This document shows positions 2,362 through 23,897 of a DNA stretch of 57,473 nucleotides, one piece after another. The notes beneath the pieces were generated by a model, which ran no database searches, had not been told where the DNA came from, and saw only the letters and a program-made list of their open reading frames with translations. This DNA comes from an uncultured Prevotellaceae bacterium (lineage in GTDB: Bacteria; Bacteroidota; Bacteroidia; Bacteroidales; Muribaculaceae). The stretch is from assembly GCA_947165485.1 (NCBI GenBank), contig CAMVAP010000017.1, positions 1 through 57,473 of the forward strand. The letters are read 5' to 3'. How positions within the stretch are numbered: position 1 is the first letter of the stretch; every line of letters starts with the position of its first letter. The translations under genes were made by a program, and so were the position numbers.

Positions 2362-3716
2362 AGCTTGATGTTTAATTGCCGGGCAAGTTTCTCCATCAAC
2401 ACATCGGATCTCACCGAGCTTGAACTGGGCAGCGACGAGAGGCCCTCCAGTTCCCGATCAAGAGCCTGGAGTCGCTCGGCATCATGCTTGCTCAGTACCG
2501 TTTTGGACAAGAGGCGGTCGCGCTCCCTGATGCTTTCATCCCATTGCGGGGATTGAAGAGTGGGCAGCTCAAAGAAACTGCTCAACAGGACAGACCCGAT
2601 GTCAGATTTAGTCATGTCGGTCAACAGGTCATCCATATCCTCGCCATACAGTTCCTCGTCATGCTCGTTGCTTGCCATACTATCCAGATTGTTGAGATTG
2701 ACCAGTTGGGCAATCCCCACGGCCCCAATGACAATGACAGGACTGTGGGTGGTAACAATAAACTGGATGTTGCTGAACACACTTGACAACTGAGCGATGA
2801 TTTCCCGCTGCCACTTGGGATGGAGATGGAGATCCACCTCGTCAATCAGCACGATTCCAGTGGTCTGGAGCGGATTCTCCATATCGGGATTGGCCTCGGC
2901 CATTCTAGCGGCCAAGTCGGCCACCATAGCGATCACAATCTTATAGCCATCGCTCATCTGCTCAATGCGCAATTCCTGGCAACTACCGTCCTCGTTGACC
3001 TTATCCATCACAAAGCGGAGTGGCCTTGTTTCAATCCTGGGATTCTTGCACGAGGGGACAAACTCTGACAGAGCAGTCCTCACGGCCTGGAGGACGGGTG
3101 ATTGATAATCAAAGTCCCGGCGCCGTTGCCTCTCCCGGCGCTCCTCATCCTCCATCAAGTCATACCATCCAAAGAAGCGCTTGAAGTCGGTCTCGGGGTT
3201 GATGGCACTCTTATAGCAGTCCCAGCGCTCAAATGTGCGCTGGAAGCCACGCTTGCGCTCAGGGACCTTGAATTGTCCACGACCTGTTCCATAATAAGCA
3301 AAAACAGGAAGTTGCACATCATTCTCACCACCCAAGATAGATTCCCTCTTCTTAAACGCGATGCGTTTTAATTCCTCATAGTTGGATTTGGGAGCGCTCG
3401 CAGTTCCCTTACGGTAACGGAATGAGCGCACCAGCTCGTCTTCACATTCAATCCAGGACTTGACTTCAAGATACCCTGAGCGACGCCCACGCTCATTGAT
3501 GTGCACATCGAGTTCAGACAACTGGTAATCCTGCACGCCAGGAAATTGCGCAGGAAAAGGAGCCATCGAAGTAGCCATCGCGTCAAGTATTGTGGTTTTT
3601 CCCAACCCATTATCACCCAGTAGAATCACCACGTTCTTGTCACGATCAAACTCCACATGTAATGGGTCTTTCCCTATCAGACGCATATTCCTAATTGAAA
3701 TACTGTTGAAGCGCAT
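2358..3716 (-). CDS. ptuA: PtuA-like ABC/SMC-type ATPase of a Septu defence pair
   Basis: This 452-residue ATPase has a Walker A motif GDNGLGKTT at residues 34-42, a Walker B region IVLIDEVDLHLHP around residues 289-300 and a following VTTHSP switch-histidine motif. Between them lies a charged, helical middle region rich in Arg and Glu. This arrangement (an OLD/RecF-like ATPase directly upstream of an HNH gene) is the architecture of PtuA in Septu anti-phage systems. It overlaps ptuB by the ATGA at 2358-2361 and has its own promoter just upstream. It is divergent from sbcD. It could alternatively be a generic AAA_21 ATPase, but the coupled HNH gene makes the Septu assignment strong. Confidence 0.8.
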   Translation of the reverse strand: MRFNSISIRNMRLIGKDPLHVEFDRDKNVVILLGDNGLGKTTILDAMATSMAPFPAQFPGVQDYQLSELDVHINERGRRSGYLEVKSWIECEDELVRSFRYRKGTASAPKSNYEELKRIAFKKRESILGGENDVQLPVFAYYGTGRGQFKVPERKRGFQRTFERWDCYKSAINPETDFKRFFGWYDLMEDEERRERQRRRDFDYQSPVLQAVRTALSEFVPSCKNPRIETRPLRFVMDKVNEDGSCQELRIEQMSDGYKIVIAMVADLAARMAEANPDMENPLQTTGIVLIDEVDLHLHPKWQREIIAQLSSVFSNIQFIVTTHSPVIVIGAVGIAQLVNLNNLDSMASNEHDEELYGEDMDDLLTDMTKSDIGSVLLSSFFELPTLQSPQWDESIRERDRLLSKTVLSKHDAERLQALDRELEGLSSLPSSSSVRSDVLMEKLARQLNIKL

Positions 3717-5119: not shown

Positions 5120-8100
5120 AACTCAAGCGACTCACCATCGACAATATCGCATCCATAGAACACGCCGAGATCAACTTTGACTCGGCACCGCTCAAGGACG
5201 AGCACCTGTTTCTCATCACAGGCGAGACCGGTTCGGGCAAGTCCACCATCATCGATTGCCTGTGCCTGGCACTGTACGGATCAACGCCACGGCTCACGTC
5301 GGCCAACAATGAGGGGTATGAAGGCGAGAACAGCAATGACATCATCCGTGCCTATGAGCCCAAACAGTTGCTGCGCCGCGGTACCACGAGCGGCGATGTA
5401 GTCCTCACATTTGATGACAAGGAGGGTACCCCCTACATCGCCACCTGGCACGTGCAACGCGCCCGCAAGAAACTGTCCAACCGCATCATGCCACCCGAGC
5501 GCACCCTTAGAACCGAGGACCACATCAACCCTCCCGTGGACCTGCAAGGGGTAAAAGCCATCAACCCGTTCATCACACAACTCATCGGGCTTGACATGCA
5601 TGAGTTCTTCCGCACGGTGGTGCTGGCGCAGGGAAAATTTGCCGAATTCCTCAATAGCAACGAGAACGACAAATCCACGCTGCTCGAGAAAATGACCGGC
5701 ACCGAGATTTACAGCCAGGTGGGGCAAAAGATCTTTGAGGTATTCCGCGAGAAAGAGAACCAGCGCAATAGCCTGCGAGACCAGCTGCAAAACATCATCT
5801 TGTTGAGCGAAGAAGAGAAAACCGCCATCACCAACGAGATCGACCAGTTCACCCAGGAACAGACGGCCATACAACATCAACGCGACAACGCCAAGAAAAT
5901 GGCCGATTGGCTCGATCAGATGGCGCAAAACCAGCAGCACCTCACCGAGAAGACGCAGGAACTAGAGCAAAAGAAACAACTCACCCAACAACCAGAATAC
6001 CTGGATCAACAACAGTTGGTCAGCGAGTGGGAGTCCACCGTTGAACCGCGACGGCAACTGAGGGAGATGCACCATGCCAATGAGGAAACCCAAACACTAC
6101 AGCGCCAACTGCCCGCCATGCAGGACGAGTTTGACCAGTTGTGTGCGGGCCTGCGCGCCATGATCATTGATGTGGAAGAAAAAGGGAAAAAACTCGATGA
6201 GATAGGGACTTATCTCATGCGAGAAGAGCCCAACCGCAAGATGTATGAAGCCATCAAGGCCATCAAGACACTCGTGAACCAGCGCAAGGGCGAGCAAGAC
6301 AACATCACGGCCTTTACCAAAGCACTCAAGCAAGGACAAGACCAGTTGCCTCAAATCGAGGCAAGCGTTAACGCCTCACAAGAAGCCGTACAACTGCAAG
6401 ACCAAAAAGTCAAGCAGCTGCAAAGCCAATATGACAACATCCAAGTAGCAGAAGTCAGCAAGAGAAAAGACGACTTGACCGAGGCCAAACAAGCGCTCAC
6501 CATCCTCAAGACCAAACATGAAGCCGTCGCCCAGGCCCAGTCCACAAGTGAGAGTTTCAAGCGCGAACTGGCCAATGAACAACAAGCCCTCGCCCAGGAG
6601 CAAGCCTCCATCGAGGCCAAGCGAGCCCTCAAAGCTCAGGCCCATGAAGCCCTTGAACGAGAAAAAGACTGGAATGCCCTTATCGAGCAGGCACACAAGT
6701 CACTGCACCAGGGAGCGACATGCCCCGTGTGTGGCAACAAGATCACCAACCTGCTACCCCCCAAGGGCAAGAACGTGCTCGATGAACTGAAGCAACGCCT
6801 CAACGATGCCGAGGAAGCGGTACAGAAAAGCGAGACTGCCATGGCCGCGTCCACCAAGGCCATCAAACGTCTCACACGGCAAATCACCGAGAGCGAGAAA
6901 GACCTAGCCTGCAAGATCATCGACCGCAACGATCAGCAGCAACAGACCAACCACTGGTTGTCACAATGTGGCAAAAAAGCCGATGAGACCCTAGATGCCG
7001 AGCAACTGGATGCCCTCACCCGGTCAATCGACGACGAAATAAAAGTGCTGAGCACTACCCTAGCCCAAGCCAGCACCCTCAACAAGATTATCACAGCCGA
7101 ACGTGACAAACTCGCCAGCCTCACCGAGGCGCATCATGCTGCAACAATCCACCTCAACCAGATCAACGAGGACATCAAGCACCAGATTCAAGCCATCACC
7201 GACAGCCAGGCAAGGATAGCAGCCCGCACCCGTGAGCTTGATGACCTGTTCACGATGAGTGACTGGCAAGAGCACATCGGCAGCAAGCCCGATTTCATCG
7301 ATCAACTGGAGCAACAAGCAGCCCATCACCAACAACAGATCAGCACGGCTCAACAGCTGGAGCAAGCCATCAAAGTCGCCAACGTCATCATTCCCGCTAT
7401 GCAGGAAAACAAGGCTAACATCAAGGGGCTTGTGGATCACGGCAAGACCTGTGACACAATTCCCGACAAACCTGATGAGCGATGGCGCCAACTGGAGAAT
7501 AAGAACATCAACTGGAATAACGAGCTTGATCACCAACGCAATATCGCTGCCCAAGCCCGCCATGCCCTCCAGGAGTATCTTGACAACCATGCCGACTTGA
7601 CCGAAGGGCGGTTATCACTTCTCGACAAGCATGACCAAGCCGAAATCGCAGCCATCAAGACATCCCACCAACAACTGGCTGAGCTCATCACCCACATGCA
7701 GGGAGAAATAACATCACTCACCCGGCAGCAAGCAGATCTCACGGCCCGAAAACCCGATTTCATCGAGCAAGACCGCGAGAAACTTGAAGCCATATACAAT
7801 GAGTGCAGTAGCCGCTTCAATGAGATGACCGACCTGATTGCCGAGCGCAAGGCACGCCTCAAGGCCGACAGCGACAATCTGCTAGCTGTGGGCGAGAAGA
7901 AGAAAGCCCTCGACAAGGCCGAGGCCATCTATAAGCAGTGGGAGGAGTTCAAGGAAATGCTGGGAGACAGCACGGGCGCAAAATTCCGTCGAATTGCCCA
8001 AAGTTACATCCTGGGTGAGCTACTGGCGTGCGCCAATGGCTACCTGCGGCAATTCAACAACCGTTACGAACTGGAAGCCAATCCCGGCACCCTCATCATC

Positions 8101-8436
8101 CTGGTAAGAGATCTGATGCAAGGCGACCTCACTACGGTAGCCACATTGTCGGGAGGCGAGAGTTTCATGGTATCTCTGGCACTGGCGCTGGCCTTGTCCA
8201 GCACCACAGGCAAGATGTTCACAGTAGATACCCTGTTTATCGACGAAGGCTTCGGTTCTCTTAGTCCCAATTATCTCGACAAGGTGATGGAGACTTTGAA
8301 CCGCCTCTACGACATCGGAGGTAAGCGCGTGGGCATCATCAGCCACGTGGAATTGCTCAAGGAACGCGTCACTACCCAGATTCAAGTCACACGTGACCCC
8401 AAGAACAACACCGTGAGCCGCATCACCGTGGTGTAA
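5116..8436 (+). CDS. sbcC: Exonuclease subunit SbcC (Rad50 family)
   Basis: This is the large SMC-type ATPase partner of SbcD, 1106 residues. Walker A GETGSGKST lies at residues 36-44. Two long Gln/Glu/Lys-rich coiled-coil arms flank a zinc-hook CPVC at residues 536-539. The C-terminal head carries the ABC signature TLSGGESFMVSLALALALS and Walker B LFIDEGFGSL. The complex opens DNA hairpins and processes ends in an ATP-dependent way. All key motifs are intact and the length is normal. It is the second gene of a two-gene operon and is followed by a repeat element whose internal hairpin may act as its terminator. Confidence 0.95.
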   Translation: MKLKRLTIDNIASIEHAEINFDSAPLKDEHLFLITGETGSGKSTIIDCLCLALYGSTPRLTSANNEGYEGENSNDIIRAYEPKQLLRRGTTSGDVVLTFDDKEGTPYIATWHVQRARKKLSNRIMPPERTLRTEDHINPPVDLQGVKAINPFITQLIGLDMHEFFRTVVLAQGKFAEFLNSNENDKSTLLEKMTGTEIYSQVGQKIFEVFREKENQRNSLRDQLQNIILLSEEEKTAITNEIDQFTQEQTAIQHQRDNAKKMADWLDQMAQNQQHLTEKTQELEQKKQLTQQPEYLDQQQLVSEWESTVEPRRQLREMHHANEETQTLQRQLPAMQDEFDQLCAGLRAMIIDVEEKGKKLDEIGTYLMREEPNRKMYEAIKAIKTLVNQRKGEQDNITAFTKALKQGQDQLPQIEASVNASQEAVQLQDQKVKQLQSQYDNIQVAEVSKRKDDLTEAKQALTILKTKHEAVAQAQSTSESFKRELANEQQALAQEQASIEAKRALKAQAHEALEREKDWNALIEQAHKSLHQGATCPVCGNKITNLLPPKGKNVLDELKQRLNDAEEAVQKSETAMAASTKAIKRLTRQITESEKDLACKIIDRNDQQQQTNHWLSQCGKKADETLDAEQLDALTRSIDDEIKVLSTTLAQASTLNKIITAERDKLASLTEAHHAATIHLNQINEDIKHQIQAITDSQARIAARTRELDDLFTMSDWQEHIGSKPDFIDQLEQQAAHHQQQISTAQQLEQAIKVANVIIPAMQENKANIKGLVDHGKTCDTIPDKPDERWRQLENKNINWNNELDHQRNIAAQARHALQEYLDNHADLTEGRLSLLDKHDQAEIAAIKTSHQQLAELITHMQGEITSLTRQQADLTARKPDFIEQDREKLEAIYNECSSRFNEMTDLIAERKARLKADSDNLLAVGEKKKALDKAEAIYKQWEEFKEMLGDSTGAKFRRIAQSYILGELLACANGYLRQFNNRYELEANPGTLIILVRDLMQGDLTTVATLSGGESFMVSLALALALSSTTGKMFTVDTLFIDEGFGSLSPNYLDKVMETLNRLYDIGGKRVGIISHVELLKERVTTQIQVTRDPKNNTVSRITVV

Positions 8437-8439
8437 AGA

Positions 8440-8574
8440 GGATGTGTCATAATTGACATCTGAAACCTTTGATCGGGCTTCGCTTGAGAACCTTTAGCTC
8501 AGCGAAGCCAAATTTTATTTAATTTCTCGGCCGTTAGGCCGATTTATAAACAAGCGAGTGAATGATGACACACC
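8440..8574. repeat. MITE-like element, family A copy 2 (135 bp)
   Basis: It begins GGATGTGTCATAATTG and ends GAATGATGACACACC, inverted copies of each other. The opening 48 bases closely match the element at 1449-1615. An internal stem (GGCTTCGCT 8476-8484 with AGCGAAGCC 8501-8509) followed by AAATTTTATTT could work as a terminator for sbcC. The rest of the 362-base gene-free stretch 8437-8798 holds an inverted repeat and the porU promoter. Confidence 0.6.
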
Positions 8575-8644
8575 ACCTAATATATAAACTGCACCACCCC
8601 ACGACATCGCAGCGACAGCACTGATGGTGAAATGTAAAATAATT

Positions 8645-8686
8645 AGACAATTTAGGGGTAAAAATGGATGATTCCGGGAATTGTCT
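8645..8686. repeat. Inverted repeat upstream of the porU promoter
   Basis: AGACAATT (8645-8652) and AATTGTCT (8679-8686) form a perfect 8-bp inverted repeat separated by 26 bp, ending 12 bp before the -33 element of the PorU-like gene. The position would suit an operator, but there is no direct evidence of regulation. Confidence 0.3.
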
Positions 8687-8697
8687 CCCCAAAATTG

Positions 8698-8728
8698 TTG
8701 GTCGTTACAATCCCAGTACCTACATTTG
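8698..8728 (+). promoter_or_regulatory. Promoter of the PorU-like gene
   Basis: TTG (8698-8700) and TACATTTG (8721-8728) are spaced by 20 bp. The start codon follows 70 bp downstream, leaving a leader of roughly 60 nucleotides. Confidence 0.5.
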
Positions 8729-8798
8729 CAAAAGAATTTAACGGCAAGAGTAGAACGTGTTTTCCCTGGAGAAGTTCACATGAGGTCAAACATATAAA

Positions 8799-11700
8799 AT
8801 GATGAATAATATGATGAGATACTACTACATTCGTTTGATGGCGTGCCTTGCTGTACTAGCGATGACCGCCAGCAGTGCTGAAGCACTGGACAAGCAATAC
8901 TACGCTCCCACCAGCAAACTTACTGAGGGCCAATGGGTCAAGATCGCCGTCCAGGAGAGCGGCATCTATCAGATCACAGCCGACGACATCCTCAGTTGGG
9001 GCCTGGGCAGCGACCTGTCCCAGATCCATGTGTTCGGCTATGGTGGCGCGCCGTTGAGCGAGGTCATGCTGAGTGACAACTACTCCGATGACCTGCCGCA
9101 GGTGCCCGTTGTGCGCTCTGGCGACCGCATCCTGTTTTACGCCCAGGGGTCCACTACCTGGCGAAAACTAAACCAGATCTTTCCTTATGTGCAGGTGCAG
9201 CACCCCTATGCCAACACAGGCTGTTACCTGGTCACCAATAACGCCCGTTACGACGATATTGACATTACCCTGGCCGACAACAGCCCCACGGGGCCGATAA
9301 AGAGTAGCTACATCGAACGCCTCTACCATGAGAAGGAGATCATCAATCCTGGTCACACGGGGCGCAACTACCTGGGCGAGAGTTTTGGCAACAACATCAA
9401 ACAGATGTTCCAGTTTGATCTGAACGGTCTGGTTGAGGGCTCCACAGTCAGTGTCTATCCCGTCTTTGCCGCCAAGACCTCAGACGCTAACGGTTACCTG
9501 ACCTACTGGTACAACGACAACCAACTTGCACAGACCGATGCCGATGTCATCCACAATTACTACAATAATAATTATACACATTACTACCTGGCAAAATCGG
9601 TCAAGCAGTTCACTCTTGATGGAACCGATCAACTGAGGTTCAAGGTCAATTTTTCCTGCACAGGCACGGTGCATGAGGCTCGCCTGGACTTCATCACCGT
9701 CAACTATGAGCGACACTTGGCAATGAGAGACGGTTGCTTGGCCTTCGGCCTCGACAAGGCGAGCCGCGACACCACCTACCAGTTGACGGGATGTGCGGGT
9801 TCCACCAGAGTGTGGGACGTCACCATGCCCTCGGCCCCGGTGCAGCAGAATGTAACCACAGCCGACGACATTGCCGCGTTCAGTCCCAGCACGACCGGGC
9901 GCCGCGAGTTCATCGCCTTCGACGAGTCGGCTACCGGCTATTCCCATCCCGAACTCGTGGGCGAAGTCCCCAACCAGAACATCCACGCCCAGGCGACTCC
10001 CGACATGATCATCCTCGCTCCTGCTGCCTATCTGGAGCAGGCACAGCGGGTAGCCGCGCTGCACGAGCGATATGACCACTACGACGTGTTGGTTCTGGAC
10101 CACGAGCAGGTGTTCAACGAGTTCTCAAGCGGCACCCGGGACGCGATGGCCTATCGCCGGCTGTGCAAGATGTTCTATGATCGCGGTGAGAGCGAGGACG
10201 GCCACCGGCTGCAGTACCTGCTGCTGTTTGGCAGCGGCAGCTACGACAACCGCATGATAGGCACCGATACGGGTTTCCTCGATAACCACAAGCTGCTCAC
10301 CTGGCAGAGCGAGGCAAGTAGCACCGATGAAAACTCCTTCACCACCGACGACTACTTCGCGGTGCTGGACGATGGCAGCAGCATCGATAATAATGACAAG
10401 ATGAACATCGCTGTGGGACGCATGATCTTCAGAAACCAGGACGAGGCGCGCACGGTGGTGGACAAGCTGGAGAACTACATCACCAGGCCCGACTACGGCT
10501 CCTGGAAGAACCGGATGATGTTTGTAGCCGACGACGAGGACACTGGTGCCCACATGGAGCAATCCAATAGCATGATCAGCATCATCGGCGACCACGGCGG
10601 CGAGAACATGGTTTATGACCATGTGTACATCGACGCCTTTGACGCCGTGGACGTGGATAGGAAGCGCACCTATCCCGATGCACGAGCCAAGATGTTCAAC
10701 TCGTTGAACGAGGGCACCCTCTGGTGGAATTATATCGGACGCTCTAGTACTCAAAGGTGGACCAACGAGGGGCTGCTGACACGGTCTGATGTCGATAGTC
10801 TGATGAATTACAGCCATTTGCCTATTCTGTATGCCGCTACGGCCGATTTCTTCCGTTTCGACAACGATTCGGTATCAAGCGGCGAGCACATGTTCATTAA
10901 GCCCGACGGCGGCGTCATAGCAGCCATCGGTGCCGCCAGGATAACCTATCTTTACGAAAATGGCAGGTTGGACCAGGCTGTAGCAAGCCACATCTTTGCC
11001 GGAGATGAGAGTGGTCGCCCAACGCGCATCGGAGATATCATTAAGATGGCCAAGAACTCCCTCATTGCGGCGAACGACAATAAGCACCGCTTCTTCTGCT
11101 TCGGTGACCCTGCCATGAGGCTGGCCTACGCTCCCTTGACGGCCCGCATCGAGAGCATCAATGGCCAAGCAGTTGACGATGAAGGCTATGAGCCGTTGGT
11201 GTTCTGGGCGCATGACTCTGTAGAGTTTAGCGGCAAGATTATCGGGCTGGATGGTAAAGTAGCTACCGATTTCAATGGCGTTGTGGTCTCGACGCTGTTT
11301 GGCCCTGAACAGTCGATCACCACCCACGGCTATGGCAATAGTGGCAAGCAAGTCACCTATGAGGATTGGTCCAACCGCCTCACCGTCATCTCAGATACCG
11401 TGGTGAACGGCGAGTTCACGGTCCATGTCATTATTCCTGACGAGGTCAACGATGAGCTTGACAATGATCGCCCTGCGTTGATCAACCTGTACGCCTACGA
11501 CAGTCGTGACTCGCTCGAGGCAAGGGGTTCCAGCAGCGATTTCTACATCTTCAAGCAGGTGGCCGACACCATCGGCCCAGACATCATCACGATGGTCTTG
11601 AATGACGAAAGATTCATCGACGGCGGCAACGTCAACGCGTCACCGGTGCTGCTGGCGACCGTTGCCGATGAGAGCGGAGTGAATCTGTCACCGGCTGAAA

Positions 11701-12230
11701 GTAAGCCCAGCATGGTGCTCGTGCTCGACGGCAGCACCATCTACAGAGACCTGGTGAATTACTATACCCCCATGCCGACTCAGCAGGGAACGCTAGGGGC
11801 CATCAGCTACCAGTTGAACGACCTGCCCGAGGGCAAGCACTACTTGACCTTGAACGTGTGGGACGTGTACAACAACAAGAGTGTGAAGACCATTACCTTC
11901 AACGTCAGCACTGGGGCTGTACCCGAGATCACCGCCCCTGGGGATCTCGATATCTACTGCGCGTTCAACGGCTCGGAAATGACCTTCTATGTGCAACATG
12001 ACCGTCTGGGTTACGGGGAGAGCGTGACCATCGAGGTGTATGACCTGATGGGGCGCTGCCTGTGGCAGAGTACGCCCTCGGGGGATAACGCCACACCTGT
12101 TACTTGGAATATGCTGGACAACGGTGGCACGCGTGTGCCTGGCGGCATTTACATCTACCGCGCTACTATCACAGCCAACGGCGGGCAGATGACGACAAGA
12201 GCCCATAAACTCGCCATTCCGACCGATTGA
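8799..12230 (+). CDS. porU: PorU-like T9SS C25 sortase homologue lacking catalytic residues
   Basis: PorU is the C25-type sortase of the T9SS attachment complex. It removes the C-terminal signal of cargo and joins it to A-LPS at the cell surface. This 1143-residue protein has a signal peptide (residues 1-30), the typical PorU N-terminal region (GIYQITADDIL, HVFGYGG), a gingipain-like domain and a C-terminal CTD-like sandwich ending TTRAHKLAIPTD. Around the active site the family normally has GHG with the catalytic His and TATCEF with the catalytic Cys. Here these read YIGRSS (Arg648) and AATADF (Ala682), while the flanking LP, FRFDN and SSGE motifs are conserved. The spacing, 34 residues, fits the His-Cys distance expected. 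The frame is open and undamaged, so this looks like a folded pseudoenzyme. The start might be Met5 or Met6 instead. It converges on two DUF4251 genes and four PorZ-like genes. Confidence 0.85.
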   Translation: MMNNMMRYYYIRLMACLAVLAMTASSAEALDKQYYAPTSKLTEGQWVKIAVQESGIYQITADDILSWGLGSDLSQIHVFGYGGAPLSEVMLSDNYSDDLPQVPVVRSGDRILFYAQGSTTWRKLNQIFPYVQVQHPYANTGCYLVTNNARYDDIDITLADNSPTGPIKSSYIERLYHEKEIINPGHTGRNYLGESFGNNIKQMFQFDLNGLVEGSTVSVYPVFAAKTSDANGYLTYWYNDNQLAQTDADVIHNYYNNNYTHYYLAKSVKQFTLDGTDQLRFKVNFSCTGTVHEARLDFITVNYERHLAMRDGCLAFGLDKASRDTTYQLTGCAGSTRVWDVTMPSAPVQQNVTTADDIAAFSPSTTGRREFIAFDESATGYSHPELVGEVPNQNIHAQATPDMIILAPAAYLEQAQRVAALHERYDHYDVLVLDHEQVFNEFSSGTRDAMAYRRLCKMFYDRGESEDGHRLQYLLLFGSGSYDNRMIGTDTGFLDNHKLLTWQSEASSTDENSFTTDDYFAVLDDGSSIDNNDKMNIAVGRMIFRNQDEARTVVDKLENYITRPDYGSWKNRMMFVADDEDTGAHMEQSNSMISIIGDHGGENMVYDHVYIDAFDAVDVDRKRTYPDARAKMFNSLNEGTLWWNYIGRSSTQRWTNEGLLTRSDVDSLMNYSHLPILYAATADFFRFDNDSVSSGEHMFIKPDGGVIAAIGAARITYLYENGRLDQAVASHIFAGDESGRPTRIGDIIKMAKNSLIAANDNKHRFFCFGDPAMRLAYAPLTARIESINGQAVDDEGYEPLVFWAHDSVEFSGKIIGLDGKVATDFNGVVVSTLFGPEQSITTHGYGNSGKQVTYEDWSNRLTVISDTVVNGEFTVHVIIPDEVNDELDNDRPALINLYAYDSRDSLEARGSSSDFYIFKQVADTIGPDIITMVLNDERFIDGGNVNASPVLLATVADESGVNLSPAESKPSMVLVLDGSTIYRDLVNYYTPMPTQQGTLGAISYQLNDLPEGKHYLTLNVWDVYNNKSVKTITFNVSTGAVPEITAPGDLDIYCAFNGSEMTFYVQHDRLGYGESVTIEVYDLMGRCLWQSTPSGDNATPVTWNMLDNGGTRVPGGIYIYRATITANGGQMTTRAHKLAIPTD

Positions 12231-12261
12231 GTGTCGTGATTAACCATCATAGCTCAAGCAA

Positions 12262-12328
12262 AGAGGGTGTGTCATAATGAAATGGACCCCAAAAGTTTTT
12301 TGTCCAACTTTTGGGGTTCATTTCACAC
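12262..12328. repeat. 38-bp palindrome copy 1, between convergent genes
   Basis: TGGACCCCAAAAGTT and AACTTTTGGGGTTCA flank the 8-bp centre TTTTGTCC, forming a near-perfect palindrome. Its left side is preceded by GGGTGTGTCATAATGAAA, the same end motif as the family A elements. An almost identical copy lies in reverse orientation at 57426-57463. The arms resemble terminal repeats of IS3-family (IS150 group) elements. Between porU and the DUF4251 gene it would serve as a bidirectional terminator. Confidence 0.6.
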
Positions 12329-12341
12329 TCGGTGGGCTGAA

Positions 12342-12842
12342 CTATTGCAGGATGTCCAAGCCGTGGATCACGCCGCTGTAGGATATCGCATCGCGGCCAC
12401 GCGGAGTAACATCGATGGTTGCCTTGCCATTCATGAACACCTCAACGTGGAACCTGTAATTGTCGTCACCATTATCTACCCTGAAGGTCACATCGGCACG
12501 GTCAGCCTTGGGATATTTCACCTGGTAGTCAAGAATCGGGCTGGTAAAATTGAGTGCCTTATATCCACTGGCGCCATAGCCCACATTCTGCCCAGAGCCG
12601 ACATAGGGCAAATAACACGTCACAGCCCCTTCACGCATGATCATCTTCTGCCCCTGGCTCACGGCAATCGTTGGGGCCGTTAAGGGCCGCATCGATCCCA
12701 CCATCACAACAAACTGGCGGGACTCAAGCAGGTGCTTGATGGCATCAACCTGCTGCTGGTCAACCACCTTATTTCCAGAGCCACATGCGGCGAGCAACAT
12801 CAGTAAACACAATGTCAAAACAAGTTGTAATTTCTTCATCAT
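12342..12842 (-). CDS. DUF4251 lipoprotein
   Basis: The 166-residue protein starts with a lipoprotein signal whose lipobox LAAC ends at about residue 20, followed by a GSGN linker. The mature domain has DUF4251 hallmarks: FVVMVGSMRPL near the N-terminus, a CYLPYVGSG motif in the middle, then KALNFTSPILDY and a C-terminal GKATIDVTPRGRDAISYSG. DUF4251 proteins are common outer-membrane or periplasmic lipoproteins of Bacteroidales without a known function. It is a paralogue of the next gene, 65 bp away, which has the same C-terminal signature. Translation may start at the first or second Met. Confidence 0.8.
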   Translation of the reverse strand: MMKKLQLVLTLCLLMLLAACGSGNKVVDQQQVDAIKHLLESRQFVVMVGSMRPLTAPTIAVSQGQKMIMREGAVTCYLPYVGSGQNVGYGASGYKALNFTSPILDYQVKYPKADRADVTFRVDNGDDNYRFHVEVFMNGKATIDVTPRGRDAISYSGVIHGLDILQ

Positions 12843-12907
12843 ATTGAACTTTTATTTTTAAGGATATATCCAGTGTTTCTCTCAAAGATTAGATAACGTG
12901 ATTATTC

Positions 12908-13396
12908 TCAAAAAATCATCTCGCCATCAAACGAGATTGCATCACGGTCGTTACCGATGATGTCGATGATGGCTTTACCATTGGTAAACATGTCGATGCG
13001 GTAATGGTAAACTTCCTCATCGTTGTTCACATCAAACTCAATCAAGTAGCGGTTACTGGTCGTCCGGGTGACCTTGTAGTTCATCATCTTACCCTTGAAG
13101 TTCAAGCCCTTTCCCCCACCATAGGGCAGGCGGTAGGCTTCACCCACATACGGTAGATAACTATCCACCTGGTCACCGTTGATCTTCAATTCATAGTCGG
13201 AGCTCACGTGGCGCGGCATTCCTCCCAGGGGTTTCATCCAATCTACCGCAATCGTGTAGCTCGCATTCTCAAGGGCCGACTCCACTTGTTGTGCCAACTG
13301 CGCCTCACGCTCGGCCCGTGTCAATCCTTTACCCGTGCCACAAGCCGCAAGGAGCACCATCAAGCAGGGCACGATCACTAATAATAACTTCCTCAT
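12908..13396 (-). CDS. DUF4251 lipoprotein, paralogue
   Basis: A 162-residue lipoprotein with lipobox LAAC followed by GTGKGL. It shares with its downstream neighbour the sequence of motifs SYTIAVDWMKPL, DSYLPYVGEAYRLPYGG, KGLNFKGKMMNY and GKAIIDIIGNDRDAISFDG, so the two arose by tandem duplication. DUF4251 has no established role. The pair sits between a PorU-like sortase and PorZ-like proteins, but a T9SS function cannot be claimed from position alone. The gene is complete. Confidence 0.8.
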   Translation of the reverse strand: MRKLLLVIVPCLMVLLAACGTGKGLTRAEREAQLAQQVESALENASYTIAVDWMKPLGGMPRHVSSDYELKINGDQVDSYLPYVGEAYRLPYGGGKGLNFKGKMMNYKVTRTTSNRYLIEFDVNNDEEVYHYRIDMFTNGKAIIDIIGNDRDAISFDGEMIF

Positions 13397-13424
13397 AAAA
13401 ATTCCTTTAAAAGATTAAACTAGG

Positions 13425-13513
13425 GAGGTTGTGTCACAACCGGCAGCTGGAATCCTTGATGGCTCGGCCAGAAGACCGTTCAAAGCTCTAGGCGTGAATG
13501 ATGACACAACCCC
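13425..13513. repeat. MITE-like element, family A copy 3 (about 89 bp)
   Basis: The element opens with GGTTGTGTCACAACC and closes with GTGAATGATGACACAACC, inverted relative to each other. The closing GTGAATGATGACACA is identical to the end of the copy at 8440-8574. The interior is shorter and more divergent than in the other two copies. It lies between the DUF4251 gene and the end of the first PorZ-like gene. Confidence 0.5.
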
Positions 13514-13525
13514 ATTACATATTAT

Positions 13526-15856
13526 TTATCGGATGACAGCGATCTTGGTCACTACACCCTCTCCACTGCCGTTGGCCCGCGAGCACAACACGAGATAAAC
13601 ACCCGTCTTGACATGGTTGCCATACTGGTCACAACAGTCCCAGGTCGTCATGCCACCAGTGGATTTCAACTGTCGCAACACATTGCCACTGGCATCAGCA
13701 ATCTTGACCAGCGAGTTGTCCATCAGGCCCGTGATTGTGACATCACCCGTGTAGTCGGGGCGCACAGGATTGGGATAGGCATAGATGTTGTCATAGGTGG
13801 GCTCGGCAGGGCCACTGTCACTGAAGTACTCATACACGCCATCAGGCGTAGTCATATAAACCGAATTGCTGTTGGGATTGCAGCACACGCGATATACCGT
13901 ATTGGAGGCCAACGGGCTGTTAGCCGAGTTAAATTTCTTGATAATCTGTGTGCCATCGGCGCTGACAAGGAAGAGTCCCGAACTCTGGGTGGCAATCCAC
14001 TTGCGGTTGGCACCGTCAACAGCAATATCATTGACCTGGATGCCATTGAGCAGGTAATCGGCCATGCCCGTGCCATCGTTGCGGGGCACCTTGATGTGGT
14101 TTACCCTGAAGTCGGGAGAGAAAGCCTGTGCGGGATTAAAGCTCACGACACCCTCGGTGCATCCCATCCACACGACACCGTTCAAGTCCTCGGTAAAGCA
14201 CAGGATATTGGTCCAGGTGAACGGTTGCCCATCCTGATCAATCAACCTGTCATAGATCTCCTGCTGGGGACGTGAAGACGATACCTCCCCATTGGAATTC
14301 CAGAAGATGATGGGTCGCTGGTAATCACCGTCATTAAAGATCTTGATGTCATAATTGCTGTTGTGTGTCGAGATGAAGATGGCCGTCTTGGTATATTCGG
14401 CGGTGTTCAAGCCATCAATCTGCGGCATCACCCAATCGCTCTTGCTGCTGGTGTTCTGCTTGAGTTTAGCAGCCGGCAGCACCATGACGGGCGATTTGCG
14501 ATTCACAAATATCTCATAGGTCTGCACCACCCACAGGTTACCATTACGATCGATTGTGGTGATGGGGTGAAGGACATACCGCTTGGACATCGGAGTGTTG
14601 GTCGAGTCATAGATCTGGACAATCTCGTTGTTATGCACCTTGAGCAGTCCTTGACGCCATGTGCTCATCAGGTAAGTATCAGGGTCACCGGGCAAGAACT
14701 CAATGTAGTAAGAACCTTGCTGATGAACCCCCTCGGGGGTCACATCGTTCCATTTCACGCCATCATAGGTATTGACCGACGTGGGGTTGCCATCGTTGTT
14801 GGTGAAGAAGAAGTTGGTGGCAGAACTGGACACATAGAGCAAATCCTTAGATTTGTTATAAGTCATCCAGAAGGGTACCCCAAAGTTCAACGCATTGGGC
14901 AGGTAATAGGAATCGCTGCCCAGCTGGTGCAGACCATTGACGCCAGCAGCCCACACGATGTTACCGTCTCCATCGGGGTTAGCGCTGCACAGCTCGCCCA
15001 CGACCTCGGTAGCGACGGGGTTGAGACCCGTCTCATCGGTTGTGTAATACTTGTTGAGGGCCGGCACATTGAGCAGATAGCCGCCACGCGTCTTTTGCAC
15101 CAAGGTGGTGCTCGCTTCAAAAAGGGGTGTCGATTTGAAACTAGCTTTTCCCTCATTGTTCACTGTCATTTTGATCCAATAGGTCCAGTCCGTCAAGCAA
15201 TAGAAAGTGGAGTCACTGATCGGGTAGATGCGACACTTGTCGTTCTTGGTCAACGAGACAGGCTCAAACGAGTCAAGCTGCTCATGATACTGGCTAGCGG
15301 AGCCATAATAGGATGACTGCGGGGTTGAGAGCACCAGCATGTCACCCACCTGAGCGACCGATGTAATGGACGTGCCATAATTGTGGGATTCCTTGATGAC
15401 AAACTTGCTATCATCGATGACCACATAGCCAAAATCGGCAGCCACATATATCAAGCCGGGAGCAAAGGTCACGTAATTGATGGTTTTGCCAGTCGTCATG
15501 ACGGCATTTTTAATCTCAGGCATATTCACTACCGAGCCATTGCTCAAGATGACATCCATATTGGAGTTGGCGTACACCAGCAGGAGATAGTCCTTGTCGC
15601 TGTTATAAAACATCTGAGTGATCGACATATCGGACAGGTCATTCACTCGGCTCAACGCCTCGTTTTCCTGAGTCTCCTTGTCGAGACGGAACAGGTTACC
15701 AGCGGCAAGATAATAGACCCACTTGTGGCCCTCGGCAACAGCAGTCATGTTGCTGCCGACAAAAGAGGTGTGAATCAGCCAATCGCCGACAGCATTCTGA
15801 GCCCCGGCACACAATGACATCATCACGGCGACCAACAATACTAATCTCTTAATCAT
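13526..15856 (-). CDS. porZ: PorZ-like T9SS attachment-complex protein (copy 1)
   Basis: PorZ is a surface protein of the T9SS attachment complex (PorU, PorV, PorQ, PorZ) built of two beta-propellers and a C-terminal CTD; it is reported to bind A-LPS. This 776-residue protein has a signal peptide (residues 1-19), the N-terminal PorZ pattern (GDWLIHTSF, NLFRLDKET, LSDMSITQMFY, a DYLLLVY strand) and the repeat motif GKTINYVTFAPGLIYVAADFGYVVID. At the end is a CTD-like domain from YAYPNPVRPDYTG to VVTKIAVIR. Its length equals that of characterised PorZ. It is the most divergent of the four copies and lies only 47 bp after copy 2, so they are probably co-transcribed. Which copy is the functional orthologue cannot be settled here. 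Confidence 0.75.
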   Translation of the reverse strand: MIKRLVLLVAVMMSLCAGAQNAVGDWLIHTSFVGSNMTAVAEGHKWVYYLAAGNLFRLDKETQENEALSRVNDLSDMSITQMFYNSDKDYLLLVYANSNMDVILSNGSVVNMPEIKNAVMTTGKTINYVTFAPGLIYVAADFGYVVIDDSKFVIKESHNYGTSITSVAQVGDMLVLSTPQSSYYGSASQYHEQLDSFEPVSLTKNDKCRIYPISDSTFYCLTDWTYWIKMTVNNEGKASFKSTPLFEASTTLVQKTRGGYLLNVPALNKYYTTDETGLNPVATEVVGELCSANPDGDGNIVWAAGVNGLHQLGSDSYYLPNALNFGVPFWMTYNKSKDLLYVSSSATNFFFTNNDGNPTSVNTYDGVKWNDVTPEGVHQQGSYYIEFLPGDPDTYLMSTWRQGLLKVHNNEIVQIYDSTNTPMSKRYVLHPITTIDRNGNLWVVQTYEIFVNRKSPVMVLPAAKLKQNTSSKSDWVMPQIDGLNTAEYTKTAIFISTHNSNYDIKIFNDGDYQRPIIFWNSNGEVSSSRPQQEIYDRLIDQDGQPFTWTNILCFTEDLNGVVWMGCTEGVVSFNPAQAFSPDFRVNHIKVPRNDGTGMADYLLNGIQVNDIAVDGANRKWIATQSSGLFLVSADGTQIIKKFNSANSPLASNTVYRVCCNPNSNSVYMTTPDGVYEYFSDSGPAEPTYDNIYAYPNPVRPDYTGDVTITGLMDNSLVKIADASGNVLRQLKSTGGMTTWDCCDQYGNHVKTGVYLVLCSRANGSGEGVVTKIAVIR

Positions 15857-15903: not shown

Positions 15904-18246
15904 TTATCTAATGACCATGATGGTTGCCTGGGGAGCGCCCGTGGTTGTCGGTTGCCCACCCTGGGCCGCATAGATGTTGTAAACCCCCGTGGGGACACGC
16001 TCGCCATCGAGGCCACAGCAATCCCACATCGCGCTACCCATCACGGGACCCATCTGAGCTACCACCCGACCATTGCGGTCGGTAATGGTCACATAGCTGT
16101 TCTCCATCAGCTTGGCGATCTTGACCAGGCCCGTGAAGTCAGGCTCCACAGGATTGGGGAAGGCATAAGTGTCATCATAATCCACAGCCGGGGCATCGCC
16201 ATTGGAGACATACTCGGCAAAGCCGTTGTCGGTGAAGGCATACACGCGGTTGTGAACTGTATCACACTCGATGCTGTAAACGAGGTTACTGGGCAGGTCA
16301 CTGTTATCGGGAGTGAAGTGGTTATAGACCTCGGTGCCATCGGCTGAGACATAAAAGACGCCATCGTTGGTGGCAATCCACTTCTTGTTGTCACGGGTCA
16401 CACCGATGTCATACACCGTGTAGCCATCACACAGGTAGCCATTGCCCTCGTCAGAGGAAGTCATCACGGGACGGATAGCACGGGGATACTCGTCAAACAC
16501 CACATCGGGGTCAAACATGAACACACCGCCCAGGTAGCCAACCCAGATCATGCCATCGTTGTCCTCCTCCATGTGCATGAGGTAGTTCCACTTGATGAGT
16601 TGGTTATTCTGGTTGACAAAACTGGAGATATTGGAGATCCTGTAAGGTCCTGCCATGACATCATCACTGCCGTTATCCCAGCAAATGATATGCCCCACCC
16701 AAGTATTTCCCGACTGGTCTCCGTCGCAATACATCTTGAAGTTGTTCTTCTTGGAAATGAGGAAGCGGGAAGCCTGCATAAAGCCGGTGTTCAACGTGAG
16801 CAAACCAGGAGGTTGAACCCAGTTGGCCTTGGCAGGGGTGAGTGTAAACTTGTCCCTGGGCAGCACGGCCACAGGACAGTTGGCATTGCCATAGGAACTA
16901 ACGACCCACAAGTTACCATTCTTGTCAAATGCCGGGTGCGCTTTATAGGTTCCTATCAGCGAATTATTCTTATTGTAGGTCGTTACCAGTGAATTGTTTT
17001 TCACCTTGTGAATACCATTCTGCCAGCTTGCGCGCACATAGGTTGTGGAATCGAAGGGAGCGAACACAAACTCATAGGCCGCACCCGTGGCACTGTAAGG
17101 CGTGGCGCTAGTCCACTTGTTGCCATCATAGGTATTGATGATATTAGAAGCCATATTATTGGGCAACGTCCTGTTCTTTTGATTCAGTGCCGAGGTACCC
17201 ACATACAGTTTATCCATTGCGGGATTGTACTTGAGCCAGTAGGGCTCGTCGGTAGTGAGGGAATTGACCTTGTAGCTGGTCGAAGTGCCCTTGATGTGCA
17301 CGCCGCTACCGTCATTGATCCACACGGTGCCATCACCATTGGGGCTGGATGTAGCAAATCCCAGCGACGAAGAAGCCTTGGTAGCCGTTTTTCCAGTCTC
17401 ATCAACCGTGTAATAATAGTTCTTTCCCGCAAAATTGGCAATATATCCCGTGGGTGCTTTTTGAACCGACGTGGGTGCAGCGGCCACCAGACTTGTCAAG
17501 ACGGGAGCGCTGCCAGCAAAATCATAGTTATAGAGTGCCGATGTCCCCAGGACAAACACCGATGACGCATTGATAGGATACAACCTTGCGCCCGTAAACG
17601 AGCCTTCGCTCCTGGCATACTCCTGCAACGGGTTGGCGCTACCCTGGGGGCCATAGTAGCAAGCATCGTTGGCCAAAATCACCAGTTGGTCACCCATGAG
17701 TGCCACCGAGTTGATGTTGATACCACTGCCCAGGTTGACATTGGAAGTCACCTTCTTGCTGGTCTCATCGATGGTCACATAGCCATAGTCCACGGCTACA
17801 TAGGCCTTACCACCCCCAAACGTGATATCATTGATGGTATTGCCCGTGAATGAGGTCAACGTGCCCATGTCAATAACGGGATTGTGGATGTGGGTCACGA
17901 CATTCTTCAAACCGCTCACGTTATAAACCTTGCCATCAAGGTCAATGATATCGATATTGGTGTCCAGATAAGCGACAAAGAGCAAGCCGTTCTGCCAGTC
18001 ATAGTAGATCTGGGAAATCTTGCCACCCGAGAGCTTATTCTGGTCATTCAACGAGACTGTCGTCTTCGTGACCTTATCAAACAAGAACAGCCTGTTGCTA
18101 TTGACGTAGTAAACTTTATCACCCGTGTCATAGACATTCTGAATCTTGGTAGTCAAGTAGTAGTTATGGGTGATCCAAGTGCCCGCATGGGTGGTGGCCA
18201 CAGCCATCACCATCAACAATAGGGAGAGAAGTTGTTTCTTTAACAT
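15904..18246 (-). CDS. PorZ-like protein (copy 2)
   Basis: This 780-residue protein begins with a signal peptide (MLKKQLLSLLLMVMAVATTHA), followed by GTWITHNYYLTTKIQNVYDT, a start shared almost word for word with copies 3 and 4. The propeller repeats contain GNTINDITFGGGKAYVAVDY and DGMIWVGYLGGVFMFDP. A CTD-like domain runs from YAFPNPVEPDFTG to ATIMVIR. It is much closer to copies 3 and 4 than to copy 1. Gaps of 74 bp upstream and 47 bp downstream suggest one transcription unit with copies 3 and 1. The role is inferred from PorZ: surface-exposed, part of or accessory to the T9SS attachment complex. No catalytic residues are expected. Confidence 0.75.
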   Translation of the reverse strand: MLKKQLLSLLLMVMAVATTHAGTWITHNYYLTTKIQNVYDTGDKVYYVNSNRLFLFDKVTKTTVSLNDQNKLSGGKISQIYYDWQNGLLFVAYLDTNIDIIDLDGKVYNVSGLKNVVTHIHNPVIDMGTLTSFTGNTINDITFGGGKAYVAVDYGYVTIDETSKKVTSNVNLGSGININSVALMGDQLVILANDACYYGPQGSANPLQEYARSEGSFTGARLYPINASSVFVLGTSALYNYDFAGSAPVLTSLVAAAPTSVQKAPTGYIANFAGKNYYYTVDETGKTATKASSSLGFATSSPNGDGTVWINDGSGVHIKGTSTSYKVNSLTTDEPYWLKYNPAMDKLYVGTSALNQKNRTLPNNMASNIINTYDGNKWTSATPYSATGAAYEFVFAPFDSTTYVRASWQNGIHKVKNNSLVTTYNKNNSLIGTYKAHPAFDKNGNLWVVSSYGNANCPVAVLPRDKFTLTPAKANWVQPPGLLTLNTGFMQASRFLISKKNNFKMYCDGDQSGNTWVGHIICWDNGSDDVMAGPYRISNISSFVNQNNQLIKWNYLMHMEEDNDGMIWVGYLGGVFMFDPDVVFDEYPRAIRPVMTSSDEGNGYLCDGYTVYDIGVTRDNKKWIATNDGVFYVSADGTEVYNHFTPDNSDLPSNLVYSIECDTVHNRVYAFTDNGFAEYVSNGDAPAVDYDDTYAFPNPVEPDFTGLVKIAKLMENSYVTITDRNGRVVAQMGPVMGSAMWDCCGLDGERVPTGVYNIYAAQGGQPTTTGAPQATIMVIR

Positions 18247-18320: not shown

Positions 18321-20678
18321 TTACTTGATGACCAGAATTGTCAATCGGGGAGCCCCCACCGTGGAAGGCTGTCCACCCTGAGCCACATAGATGTTATAAA
18401 CGCCCGTAGCGACGCGGTCGCCATCGGCACCGCAGCCATCCCACAAGGCGCTACCCTGCACGGGACCCATCTGAGCCACTACCTGACCCGTGCGGTCGGT
18501 AATCGTCACATAGGAATCCTCCATGAGGTTGGCGATCTTCACCAGGCCAGTGAAATCAGGCTCGACGGGATTGGGGAAGACGTAGGCATCATCAAAGTTC
18601 ACCATTGTCACCTCGCCTTGAGGGTCATATTCAGCAAATCCGCCATCGGTGAAAGCATAGACGCGGTCGTGAACCGTGTCACACTCGATGCTGTACACAA
18701 GATTGCCAGGCAGGTTGCTGTTCTGGGTAGTGAAGTGGTCATAGACCTCGGTACCATCGGGAGAAATGTAATACACACCGTTGTCGGTGGCAATCCATTT
18801 CTTGTTGTCGCGTGTCACGCCGATGTCATGCACCGTTAAGCCCTCACACAAGTAGCCTTTTCCCTCGCTTGACTTGGTGACATAAGGACGGGTCGCATGA
18901 GGATAATCATCAAACACCACATCAGGATCAAACACAAACAAACCTGAGGTGTAACCAGCCCAAATCATGCCATCGTTGTCTTCCTCGACATGCATGATAT
19001 AGGTCCAATCGATCTGCTTGTTATTCTGATCGACAAAATTCACGATGCACACAGCCTTGTAATTATCAACTGTCGGGTCGTCACTAGCGTTGTCCCAGCA
19101 CACAAAATGTCCCAACACCGCACTTGACTGATAGTCACAATCATTGTAAATCTTCACGTTATTCTTCTTGGAGATAATGAAGCGCGAACGCTGCATCTCA
19201 CCTGTATTCAACCACAGCAACCCGCTGGGCTGGAACCAATCAGTCAACTTGACCGAGCTCTTGAGATACTTGGCCCGGGGCAGGACGGCCACAGGGCATG
19301 TGGGATTATTGTAAGAGCAAACCACCCACAGATTACCATTCTTGTCAAATGCGGGGTGAGGTTTACGTTTACCGATGATTGAGTTGGACTTGTTATAGGT
19401 TATCACCAGTTCATCGTTGGTCACCTTGTGGAGACCGCTTTCCCAGCTGGCCCTAACATAGGTGTGAGGATCCATTGGGTCAAAGACAAACTCATAGGCC
19501 GCGCCACTGGATGAATAAGGTGTCTCGGCTTTCCATTGCTGACCGTCAAATGTATTGATCACATGAGGTGCCATATTGGAGGGTAACGACCTGTTCTGGC
19601 CATTAAGAGCCGAGGTGCCCGCATACAGTTTATCCATTGCGGCGCTGTACTTGAGCCAGTAGGGCTCGTCGGTGGTAAGCGCATTGGGCATATAGTTGAC
19701 CGAACTGCCCTTGAGGTGCAGTCCCTTGGCATCATTGATCCACACCTTGCCATCGCCCATGGGGTCGGATGTCGCAAAGCCCGCAGTCGTCGATGCCTGT
19801 GTCACAGTCATGCCCGTCGCATCTATCGTATAGTAGAAATCCTGTCCAGGGAAATTGGCGATAAAACCATCTTTGGCCTTCTGAACTGTCACAGGGGCTA
19901 ATTTCAACAATCTGGTCAATACTGGCGCACTACCCGAGAAGTCATACCTGTAGAGCGACGTTGACCCCATCAAGAAGGCCGATGTCTCGTTGATCGGATA
20001 TAACTTGGCGCCCGAGAACGTGCCAGACTGCCTGTTGTAAGCAGCAAACGGGTTACCTGTGGTTCCCAGTGGGCCATAATAGCAGTTCTTGTCGGTAAGA
20101 ATCAGCATCGTATTGCCGATCACCGCCACCGAGTTGATGTTGGTGGTACTGACAAATGCCCCCAGGTTGACATGATCGACCACCCTCTTGGTCGTCTCAT
20201 CGATGGTGACATAGCCATAATCGAGGGTGACATAGGCAATGCCGTGAGCAAAGGTGATGTCGTTGATCGTATTGCCCGTGTAACCAGCCAGCACATTTTC
20301 ATTCAACGTATAGTTGCGCACATTGAACACAGCATTCTTGAGATTGCTCACGTTATAGACCTTGCCACTGGCATCGATGATGTCGATATTGTTATCAAAG
20401 TAGGCAAGAAACAGCAGCTTATTCTCCCAGTCATAGTAGGCTTGAGTAATGTTGACATCGGACAACTTGTTCAGGCTGTTGAACGAGATGGTTGTCGAGG
20501 TAGCCTTGTCAAACTGGAATAAATCACCGCTGTTGACGTAGTAAACCTTATCACCCGTGTCATACACATTTTGGATCTTGGATGACACATAATAGTTATG
20601 AATTCTCCATGTGCCGGCCTGGCTGCTGGCGACAGTCATCACCAGAAGAAGCAGCAACTGAAAATATCTTTTTAACAT
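18321..20678 (-). CDS. PorZ-like protein (copy 3)
   Basis: The reading frame is open further upstream, but the start MLKRYFQLLLLLVMTVASS gives a proper signal peptide and matches the paralogues, so translation probably begins at 20678 (785 residues). The mature protein opens with GTWRIHNYYVSSKIQNVYDT. It contains the same propeller segments as copies 2 and 4 (GNTINDITFAHGIAYVTLDY, DGMIWAGYTSGLFVFDP) and ends with a CTD-like domain from YVFPNPVEPDFTG to LTILVIK. One difference is WDGCGADG where copy 2 has WDCCGLDG. The gene is followed closely by copy 2 and preceded by a 209-bp spacer in which I could not identify a convincing -7 element. Confidence 0.72.
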   Translation of the reverse strand: MLKRYFQLLLLLVMTVASSQAGTWRIHNYYVSSKIQNVYDTGDKVYYVNSGDLFQFDKATSTTISFNSLNKLSDVNITQAYYDWENKLLFLAYFDNNIDIIDASGKVYNVSNLKNAVFNVRNYTLNENVLAGYTGNTINDITFAHGIAYVTLDYGYVTIDETTKRVVDHVNLGAFVSTTNINSVAVIGNTMLILTDKNCYYGPLGTTGNPFAAYNRQSGTFSGAKLYPINETSAFLMGSTSLYRYDFSGSAPVLTRLLKLAPVTVQKAKDGFIANFPGQDFYYTIDATGMTVTQASTTAGFATSDPMGDGKVWINDAKGLHLKGSSVNYMPNALTTDEPYWLKYSAAMDKLYAGTSALNGQNRSLPSNMAPHVINTFDGQQWKAETPYSSSGAAYEFVFDPMDPHTYVRASWESGLHKVTNDELVITYNKSNSIIGKRKPHPAFDKNGNLWVVCSYNNPTCPVAVLPRAKYLKSSVKLTDWFQPSGLLWLNTGEMQRSRFIISKKNNVKIYNDCDYQSSAVLGHFVCWDNASDDPTVDNYKAVCIVNFVDQNNKQIDWTYIMHVEEDNDGMIWAGYTSGLFVFDPDVVFDDYPHATRPYVTKSSEGKGYLCEGLTVHDIGVTRDNKKWIATDNGVYYISPDGTEVYDHFTTQNSNLPGNLVYSIECDTVHDRVYAFTDGGFAEYDPQGEVTMVNFDDAYVFPNPVEPDFTGLVKIANLMEDSYVTITDRTGQVVAQMGPVQGSALWDGCGADGDRVATGVYNIYVAQGGQPSTVGAPRLTILVIK

Positions 20679-23800: not shown

Positions 23801-23897
23801 ATCATTTAAGTTTAATTTATTATCCACAAATCAATTAACATACTTATAGTCAGCAAGATTTGCACAACACACAGACAAAACCCACTGAATCAAAAGG

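Follow-up and report, generated by a model that had tools for sequence, protein, structure and literature searches.

A laterally transferred PorU paralogue without its catalytic His and Cys is kept under purifying selection in an uncultured Prevotellaceae bacterium

What use can a bacterium have for a sortase that has given up the residues of its own chemistry? The question is raised by one gene in a stretch of 57,473 nucleotides (hereafter the window) on contig CAMVAP010000017.1 of assembly GCA_947165485.1, an uncultured Prevotellaceae bacterium placed by GTDB in the Muribaculaceae. The gene, listed with the other features in Table 1, encodes a protein (P0001) related to PorU, the sortase of the type IX secretion system (T9SS). 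A preliminary description of this DNA noted Arg and Ala at the places of the catalytic His and Cys in a full-length reading frame, and suggested that the protein, with its fold kept, may be a structural or substrate-binding member of the attachment complex or else a competitor of an active PorU. The analysis presented here goes beyond that description in two respects: the gene is laterally mobile and it is under purifying selection. Throughout, P0002 denotes the canonical PorU of the window's genome, and homologues are called dead where the catalytic Cys is lost and live where it is kept.

Profile and structure searches place P0001 with PorU. The Peptidase_C25 model PF01364 is matched across all 374 of its positions (E 5.6e-84), the T9SS_sortase model NF033707 is matched over residues 41-1140 with 853 bits against a cut-off of 420, and residues 36-1140 match the PorU of Porphyromonas gingivalis in PDB 6za2 (E 5.5e-139). 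P0001 tests positive for both the gingipain-like C25 fold and the C-terminal T9SS signal domain (CTD), and its domain order and length are those of P. gingivalis PorU, which also has both domains. The NF033707 score and a predicted gingipain-like domain agree with the earlier statement that the fold is kept. The N-terminus is hydrophobic by eye, and the predicted structure has a helix at residues 2-24. P0001 is 60% identical to P0002 and in alignment 15% identical to the gingipains RgpB and Kgp of peptidase family C25, which differ in being active cysteine proteases, cargo, and outside the attachment complex. The likeness to the putative PorU2 (NF052324) is distant, with a score of 76.3 bits that lies well under the cut-off of 450. 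Judged by its sequence, P0001 is a PorU by descent and model score and falls outside the PorU sortases by their defining chemistry. Since both catalytic residues were tested for and are missing, we prefer to name it a pseudo-sortase derived from PorU rather than a PorU sortase.

In the alignment with 6za2, Arg648 stands opposite His655 of the chain and Ala682 opposite Cys688, which bears out the residues and coordinates first reported. Full-length P. gingivalis PorU is taken here to have 1158 residues, and the two-residue offset from the 1156-residue chain of 6za2 converts 655 and 688 to His657 and Cys690. Passages of PMC5121618 and PMC5562754 give Cys690 as the catalytic residue of P. gingivalis PorU and describe the laboratory mutant C690A, which has the same Cys-to-Ala change at the same site. 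With Ala682 falling on Cys690 in the alignment, P0001 is in that sense a natural C690A. It differs from the mutant in being natural, in also lacking the His, in having evolved under selection, and in coexisting with His/Cys PorU proteins, whereas the mutant protein replaces the sole PorU. A sequencing or assembly error can be ruled out. The codons at the two sites in 13 His/Cys genes compared are CAY and TGY, whereas the Ala682 codon is GCC in all five dead DNA copies, which come from five genomes. Going from Cys to Ala therefore needs two base changes, and a further 17 Cys-less protein clusters (16 with Ala and one with Ser) speak against error as well. Within the gingipain-like domain of the predicted structure, a strand at 642-646 is followed by Arg648 and a strand at 676-680 by Ala682; this placement of the active site relies on the alignment and the preceding strands.

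The preliminary description allowed for another His-Cys pair in the active site. Compared with live PorU at the sequence level, the C25 domain of P0001 has gained no His or Cys, and those that it contains are all common to live PorU or variable, so a replacement catalytic pair there was rejected. At 19 positions the dead consensus departs from a residue that is at least 93% conserved across 101 live sequences. The C25 domain holds ten of these positions, seven of them between 648 and 716, where the changes include H648R, A649S, S650N, C682A, E683D, and A716T. Such changes around the active site look more like remodelling than random decay. A remodelled pocket might perform another reaction through other residues, and the constancy of Ser649 and Thr716 (invariant in 16 of 16 dead sequences compared) and of Arg648 (13 of 16) speaks for this explanation. 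However, Ser649 is also found in the His/Cys PorU P0002, position 648 holds His or Cys in some members and Arg is therefore not essential there, and with no Cys or His gained in the C25 domain we consider a different chemistry highly improbable.

How far the loss extends was read from 125 aligned sequences, composed of the best 120 of 2063 homologues and five from the window's genome (P0001-P0126 minus the helicase P0006; each hit represents a cluster, and P0086 nearly duplicates P0002). The two sites hold His/Cys in 106 sequences, Arg/Ala in 14, His/Ala in two, and Cys/Ala, Arg/Ser, and Gln/Cys in one each. The catalytic Cys is absent from 18, and the remaining 107 are the 106 His/Cys sequences and the one with Gln/Cys. 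With His/Cys nearly universal outside the Cys-less group (106 of 107), the catalytic residues do not vary freely in PorU, a possibility that had earlier been left open. All 18 Cys-less sequences form a single clade with a support of 100 in the Shimodaira-Hasegawa-like approximate likelihood ratio test (SH-aLRT), in a quick tree of 64 of the 125 sequences that included all 18 and left out the two active-site columns. This tree requires one change for the loss of the Cys and five for the His column, and on it the loss of the Cys is shown to have a single origin. Either residue may have gone first, as both His/Ala members branch from within Arg/Ala sequences. The nearest relatives of the dead clade (P0022-P0024 and P0027-P0030) are all His/Cys. 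One live-type paralogue, P0026, has Gln at the catalytic His and keeps the Cys; this separate change, seen in one sequence, is possibly a second, independent start of active-site loss.

A gene in this condition could be a decaying duplicate, a former sortase on its way out and kept only by recent transfer. The loss of both catalytic residues, a CTD that is the least conserved domain, and a low synonymous divergence (dS) between copies, which means less time for decay, all suit that explanation. The rates of change do not. The ratio of nonsynonymous to synonymous divergence (dN/dS) is 0.27-0.42 in every one of the ten pairwise comparisons among the dead DNA copies of five genomes, although it is imprecise where dS is near 0.07; the seven pairs with dS above 0.2 give 0.27-0.35, and live paralogues give 0.25-0.29. 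In the six dead pairs that were bootstrapped, the upper 95% bound on the whole-gene ratio does not exceed 0.60, and thus stays below 1, and one codon-model estimate of omega is 0.28. No stop codon interrupts the five dead DNA copies, one of which ends at a contig end; at 0.19 neutral changes per site, roughly half the dS in the wider pairs, each gene should have gathered about 22. Dead proteins span 77-95% identity to P0001, yet 17 of the 18 are 1133-1152 amino acids long (P0031 has 877). The C25 domain of the dead clade, with a mean pairwise identity of 0.83 and dN/dS of 0.25-0.39, is not relaxed relative to the rest in rate comparisons that cover 16 of the 18 dead proteins (P0012 and the 877-residue P0031 were left out). 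Purifying selection has acted on the gene after the loss of the catalytic residues, which largely refutes decay and leaves it scarcely credible. P0001 can accordingly be classed, from its sequence, as a pseudoenzyme in which the catalytic residues are gone, the fold is kept, and selection is purifying.

The dead gene has also been passed laterally between species. Its dS between the window and genome G023 is 0.067, when 11 control genes give 0.71-1.88; the corresponding values are 0.144 for G002 (10 control genes, 0.58-1.10), 0.417 for G032 (10 control genes, 0.89-1.83), and 0.372 for G018 (6 control genes, 1.13-1.46). All controls were taken from a single porU region spanning about 30 kb, with canonical porU and a divergent PorU among them. 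In blastn, homology with the G002, G032, and G018 copies stops at 8578-8658 and 12234-12278, and the G023 contig ends within the homologous stretch. In the four species with readable flanks, the genes that adjoin the dead copy differ: the window has sbcCD and DUF4251-porZ; G002 has nitroreductase, MFS, and SpoIIE-domain proteins; G032 has Zac proteins and an AAA-NT5C pair; and G018 has AMP-binding and AAA/DUF4143 proteins. It is the combination of a dS below that of the controls in each genome pair, tight edges of homology, and differing surroundings that establishes the transfer. Mis-binning is possible for the G023 copy, whose contig of 3662 bases holds only the dead gene, and unlikely for the copies in G002, G032, and G018, which sit on contigs of 26.6, 124, and 267 kb, respectively; the G018 contig also carries canonical porU. 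In the window, a DUF4251 protein (12908-13396, minus strand) is encoded between the pseudo-sortase gene and a row of porZ-like genes.

Table 1. Positions of the pseudo-sortase gene and associated features in the window
Feature	Position	Strand	Remarks
PorU-paralogue pseudo-sortase gene	8799..12230	+	1143 aa; ATG start, TGA end, no internal stop
Arg648 codon CGC at catalytic-His position	10740..10742	+	by alignment
Ala682 codon GCC at catalytic-Cys position (Cys690 of P. gingivalis PorU)	10842..10844	+	by alignment
C25 (gingipain-like) domain	9984..11138	+	residues 396-780
C-terminal T9SS signal domain (CTD)	11931..12227	+	residues 1045-1143
Conserved upstream leader, travels with gene	8629..8798	+	alignable across all five dead copies and the live stand-alone copy of G069
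Approximate transferred unit	8629..12247	+	blastn homology to G002, G032, and G018 copies
Dispersed intergenic repeat upstream of unit	8436..8573	.	parts recur in genome
19-base direct repeat, left copy	8435..8453	.	flanks unit
19-base direct repeat, right copy	12260..12278	.	95% identical to left copy
Four porZ-like genes in a row	13526-15856, 15904-18246, 18321-20780, 21452-23827	- (all)	above PorZ cut-off

What moves the gene was sought in its flanks. The five dead copies and the live G069 copy share a conserved leader of about 140-220 bases, which has no blastn match in canonical porU loci or in the tandem-paralogue loci of G082 and G048. It probably carries its own promoter, and we take its TTGG...TACATTTG arrangement to resemble Bacteroidetes promoters. 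Farther upstream, the stretch 8436-8640 has 28 matches in the window's genome, itself included, and the 19-base direct repeats share the end of this dispersed repeat. A version of the 19-base repeat with two mismatches lies just downstream of the G002 copy, a match with three mismatches in G018 lies kilobases from the gene, and none with up to four mismatches was seen in the G032 and G069 loci. Related repeats occur near the G002 copy and near the live G019 copy. The G032 gene is flanked by two other direct repeats, 76-77% identical in pieces across about 560 bases, and parts of this flank repeat adjoin AAA and/or NT5C-like proteins elsewhere in G002 and G019. No transposase or integrase is encoded among the nine scanned neighbours of the copies, and Rfam has no match in 8000-13600. 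A defined mobile element was looked for in these flanks and not found.

A few observations from the same flanks can be recorded here. The AAA and NT5C-like pair that adjoins the G032 copy (locus L064, 9053-11319) recurs once each in G002 and G019, and the NT5C-like gene also stands at a second site in G002, all with the same flank. A phage-type integrase (locus L111, 4366-5724, minus strand) is encoded in G002 at a distance of about 400 bases from one copy of the repeat that flanks the G032 gene. Just past the transferred unit is a hairpin (12278-12325) with two 20-base arms that are 95% complementary, and a stretch 94% identical to it lies downstream of the live G019 copy.

The varied surroundings bear on the explanation that the gene is a passenger or decoy in defence islands, selected for altering the surface targets of phages or antibacterial proteins. 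The dead gene is mobile, and its neighbourhoods offer some encouragement: the window has a Septu-like PtuA/PtuB (1654-3716), Zac and IetA-like proteins adjoin the G032 copy, and three PDC-S01 proteins adjoin the G018 copy. Nevertheless, a link to defence was looked for only after the neighbours had been seen, none of ten proteins near the G002 dead copy (six) and the G069 live copy (four) match, and PtuAB ends 5 kb from the gene with sbcCD in between. The control set is small, and none of its ten other window proteins match. PDC-S01 (AAA/DUF4143) proteins are moreover common, which counts against this explanation, and we regard it as very unlikely. As observations in their own right, the PtuA/PtuB pair is on the minus strand and resembles Septu or the retron Ec78 effector system, and a Zac-like three-gene defence set (L064, 708-6702) adjoins the G032 copy.

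The preliminary description had called for a genome-wide look for an intact PorU and for porV, porQ, and the T9SS core; PorU proteins with both His and Cys, PorV, PorQ, and SprA/Sov were found. Five C25 proteins in the window's genome score above the PorU cut-off: P0001 and four paralogues on contig 35, all four of which keep both His and Cys. P0002 has the canonical motifs GHSS and ATCEF, and P0003-P0005 form a divergent tandem set with GHAG and ACC. The three divergent genes adjoin canonical porU (L006, 11203-18452, and L007, 2489-5962, on contig 35). This divergent type is present in 10 of 10 genus genomes inspected, where 20 of 20 sequences read are His/Cys, as are all of the best 120 of its 1509 hits. 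The genome, which is 92% complete and may hold further genes, has one PorV (399 bits) and one PorQ (355 bits), each matching the other's model more weakly, and one SprA/Sov. All four of its PorZ genes above the cut-off lie inside the window. A T9SS tail model matches at seven places, two of which are PorU proteins, so recognised cargoes are few, although the model may miss many. More broadly, G023, G002, G032, and G018 also have a canonical His/Cys PorU, at least two matches to the PorU model occur in 99 of 101 genus genomes, and several PorZ per genome are common in the genus. The numbers of PorU and PorZ are equal in 23 of 48 genomes that are at least 90% complete (shuffle mean 12.7; rank correlation 0.31), with fragments counted as matches, and are suggestive of pairing. 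A conserved partnership of the pseudo-sortase gene with the neighbouring porZ row was ruled out: no open reading frame in the 14-19 kb that surrounds the dead copies in G002, G032, and G018, or the live one in G069, matches the window's PorZ proteins.

How could such a protein have come about, and what might it do? In G082 and G048 a live paralogue directly adjoins canonical porU, which points to tandem duplication as the origin. The PorU paralogue was probably born by duplication beside canonical porU; it would then have turned into a stand-alone gene with its leader and been transferred between species, and one branch would have lost the catalytic Cys and His, with the remaining protein under selection. 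The pseudo-sortase would be exported through Sec and the T9SS like PorU and held at the cell surface through its CTD. It may act by binding, either pairing or competing with active PorU for PorV, PorZ, or cargo, and may thereby set the amount of cargo that is cut and anchored. In P. gingivalis, according to passages of PMC5562754, PorU, PorV, PorZ, and PorQ form one complex, and passages of PMC8545088 describe direct binding of PorZ to PorU that is tighter with A-LPS (anionic lipopolysaccharide). One concrete form of the proposal is a heterodimer of pseudo-sortase and active PorU, suggested because PDB 6za2 is titled as a dimeric latent PorU of P. gingivalis. For a protein that keeps the PorU body, the catalytic-domain sequence, and the CTD while lacking the catalytic residues, the best explanation is a role in binding active PorU or competing with it. 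We therefore favour, with somewhat more confidence than doubt, an exported pseudo-sortase that would bind partners of the attachment complex or cargo and modulate the His/Cys PorU proteins, in keeping with the role first suggested.

Several results weigh against this preferred proposal. The residue at the His position is still His in two of the 18 Cys-less members and Cys in one. Selection on the dead gene is somewhat weaker than on canonical porU, for which dN/dS is 0.11-0.32. The CTD is the least conserved domain of the dead clade, with an identity of 0.79 and dN/dS of up to 0.59, which weakens the idea of docking. Elsewhere, CTD identity is 0.87 in canonical PorU (its most conserved domain), 0.65 in live paralogues (their least conserved), and 0.80 in a third live group; because live paralogues also have a poorly conserved CTD, the change in CTD constraint probably preceded the loss of the active site. 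Dead copies were found in 5 of 101 genus genomes (from best rows with motifs read, so fragments could be missed), and cells can therefore do without the gene. Finally, passages of PMC5562754 report for the P. gingivalis porU C690A mutant a small PorZ-PorQ complex without PorU and PorV, so that a PorU with Cys changed to Ala may be an unstable member of the four-part complex.

The same mutant suggests a harsher form of interference, in which the dead protein is a dominant-negative brake that occupies PorV or PorZ or holds the CTDs of cargo uncut. It would then be an inhibitor and not a helper, and more cargo would be left unprocessed or released. PorV was found with uncut cargo in C690A, as passages of PMC5562754 describe, and by analogy the mutant's behaviour fits a brake at least as well as the favoured proposal. 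The genome yielded a single PorV and a single PorQ against five PorU proteins, so partners may also be limiting. On the other hand, a general brake on the T9SS would be costly, and in P. gingivalis the effect arose in cells that had no active PorU; we judge the brake unlikely. A bolder combination deserves mention as quite unlikely: a transferable anti-sortase, in which a single-gene mobile unit would insert an inactive PorU into the attachment machinery of a new species and reprogram the anchoring or release of cargo, perhaps being kept in variable islands by removing or hiding surface targets of phages or rivals.

Returning to the favoured proposal of a modulating pseudo-sortase, pseudoenzymes are a known kind of protein. 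The titles and abstract openings retrieved in our literature search contain no report of a natural inactive PorU or of several PorU per genome, nor do they describe an inactive, mobile T9SS sortase that coexists with four whose active site is in place; PMC7323717 deals with the transfer of T9SS components between classes, and its passages make no mention of paralogues or duplication. Beyond the replaced His and Cys, P0001 differs from the known PorU in being a stand-alone mobile gene, in having the CTD as its least conserved domain, and in sharing its genome with several PorU. Most of what is known about PorU has been learned in P. gingivalis, which has a single sortase with a single active site. 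A branch that gave up catalysis and kept its shape makes the role of the PorU body in the attachment complex testable apart from the chemistry, and these natural C690A-like proteins, tuned by selection, may serve as tools for trapping complexes of PorU, PorV, PorZ, and cargo.

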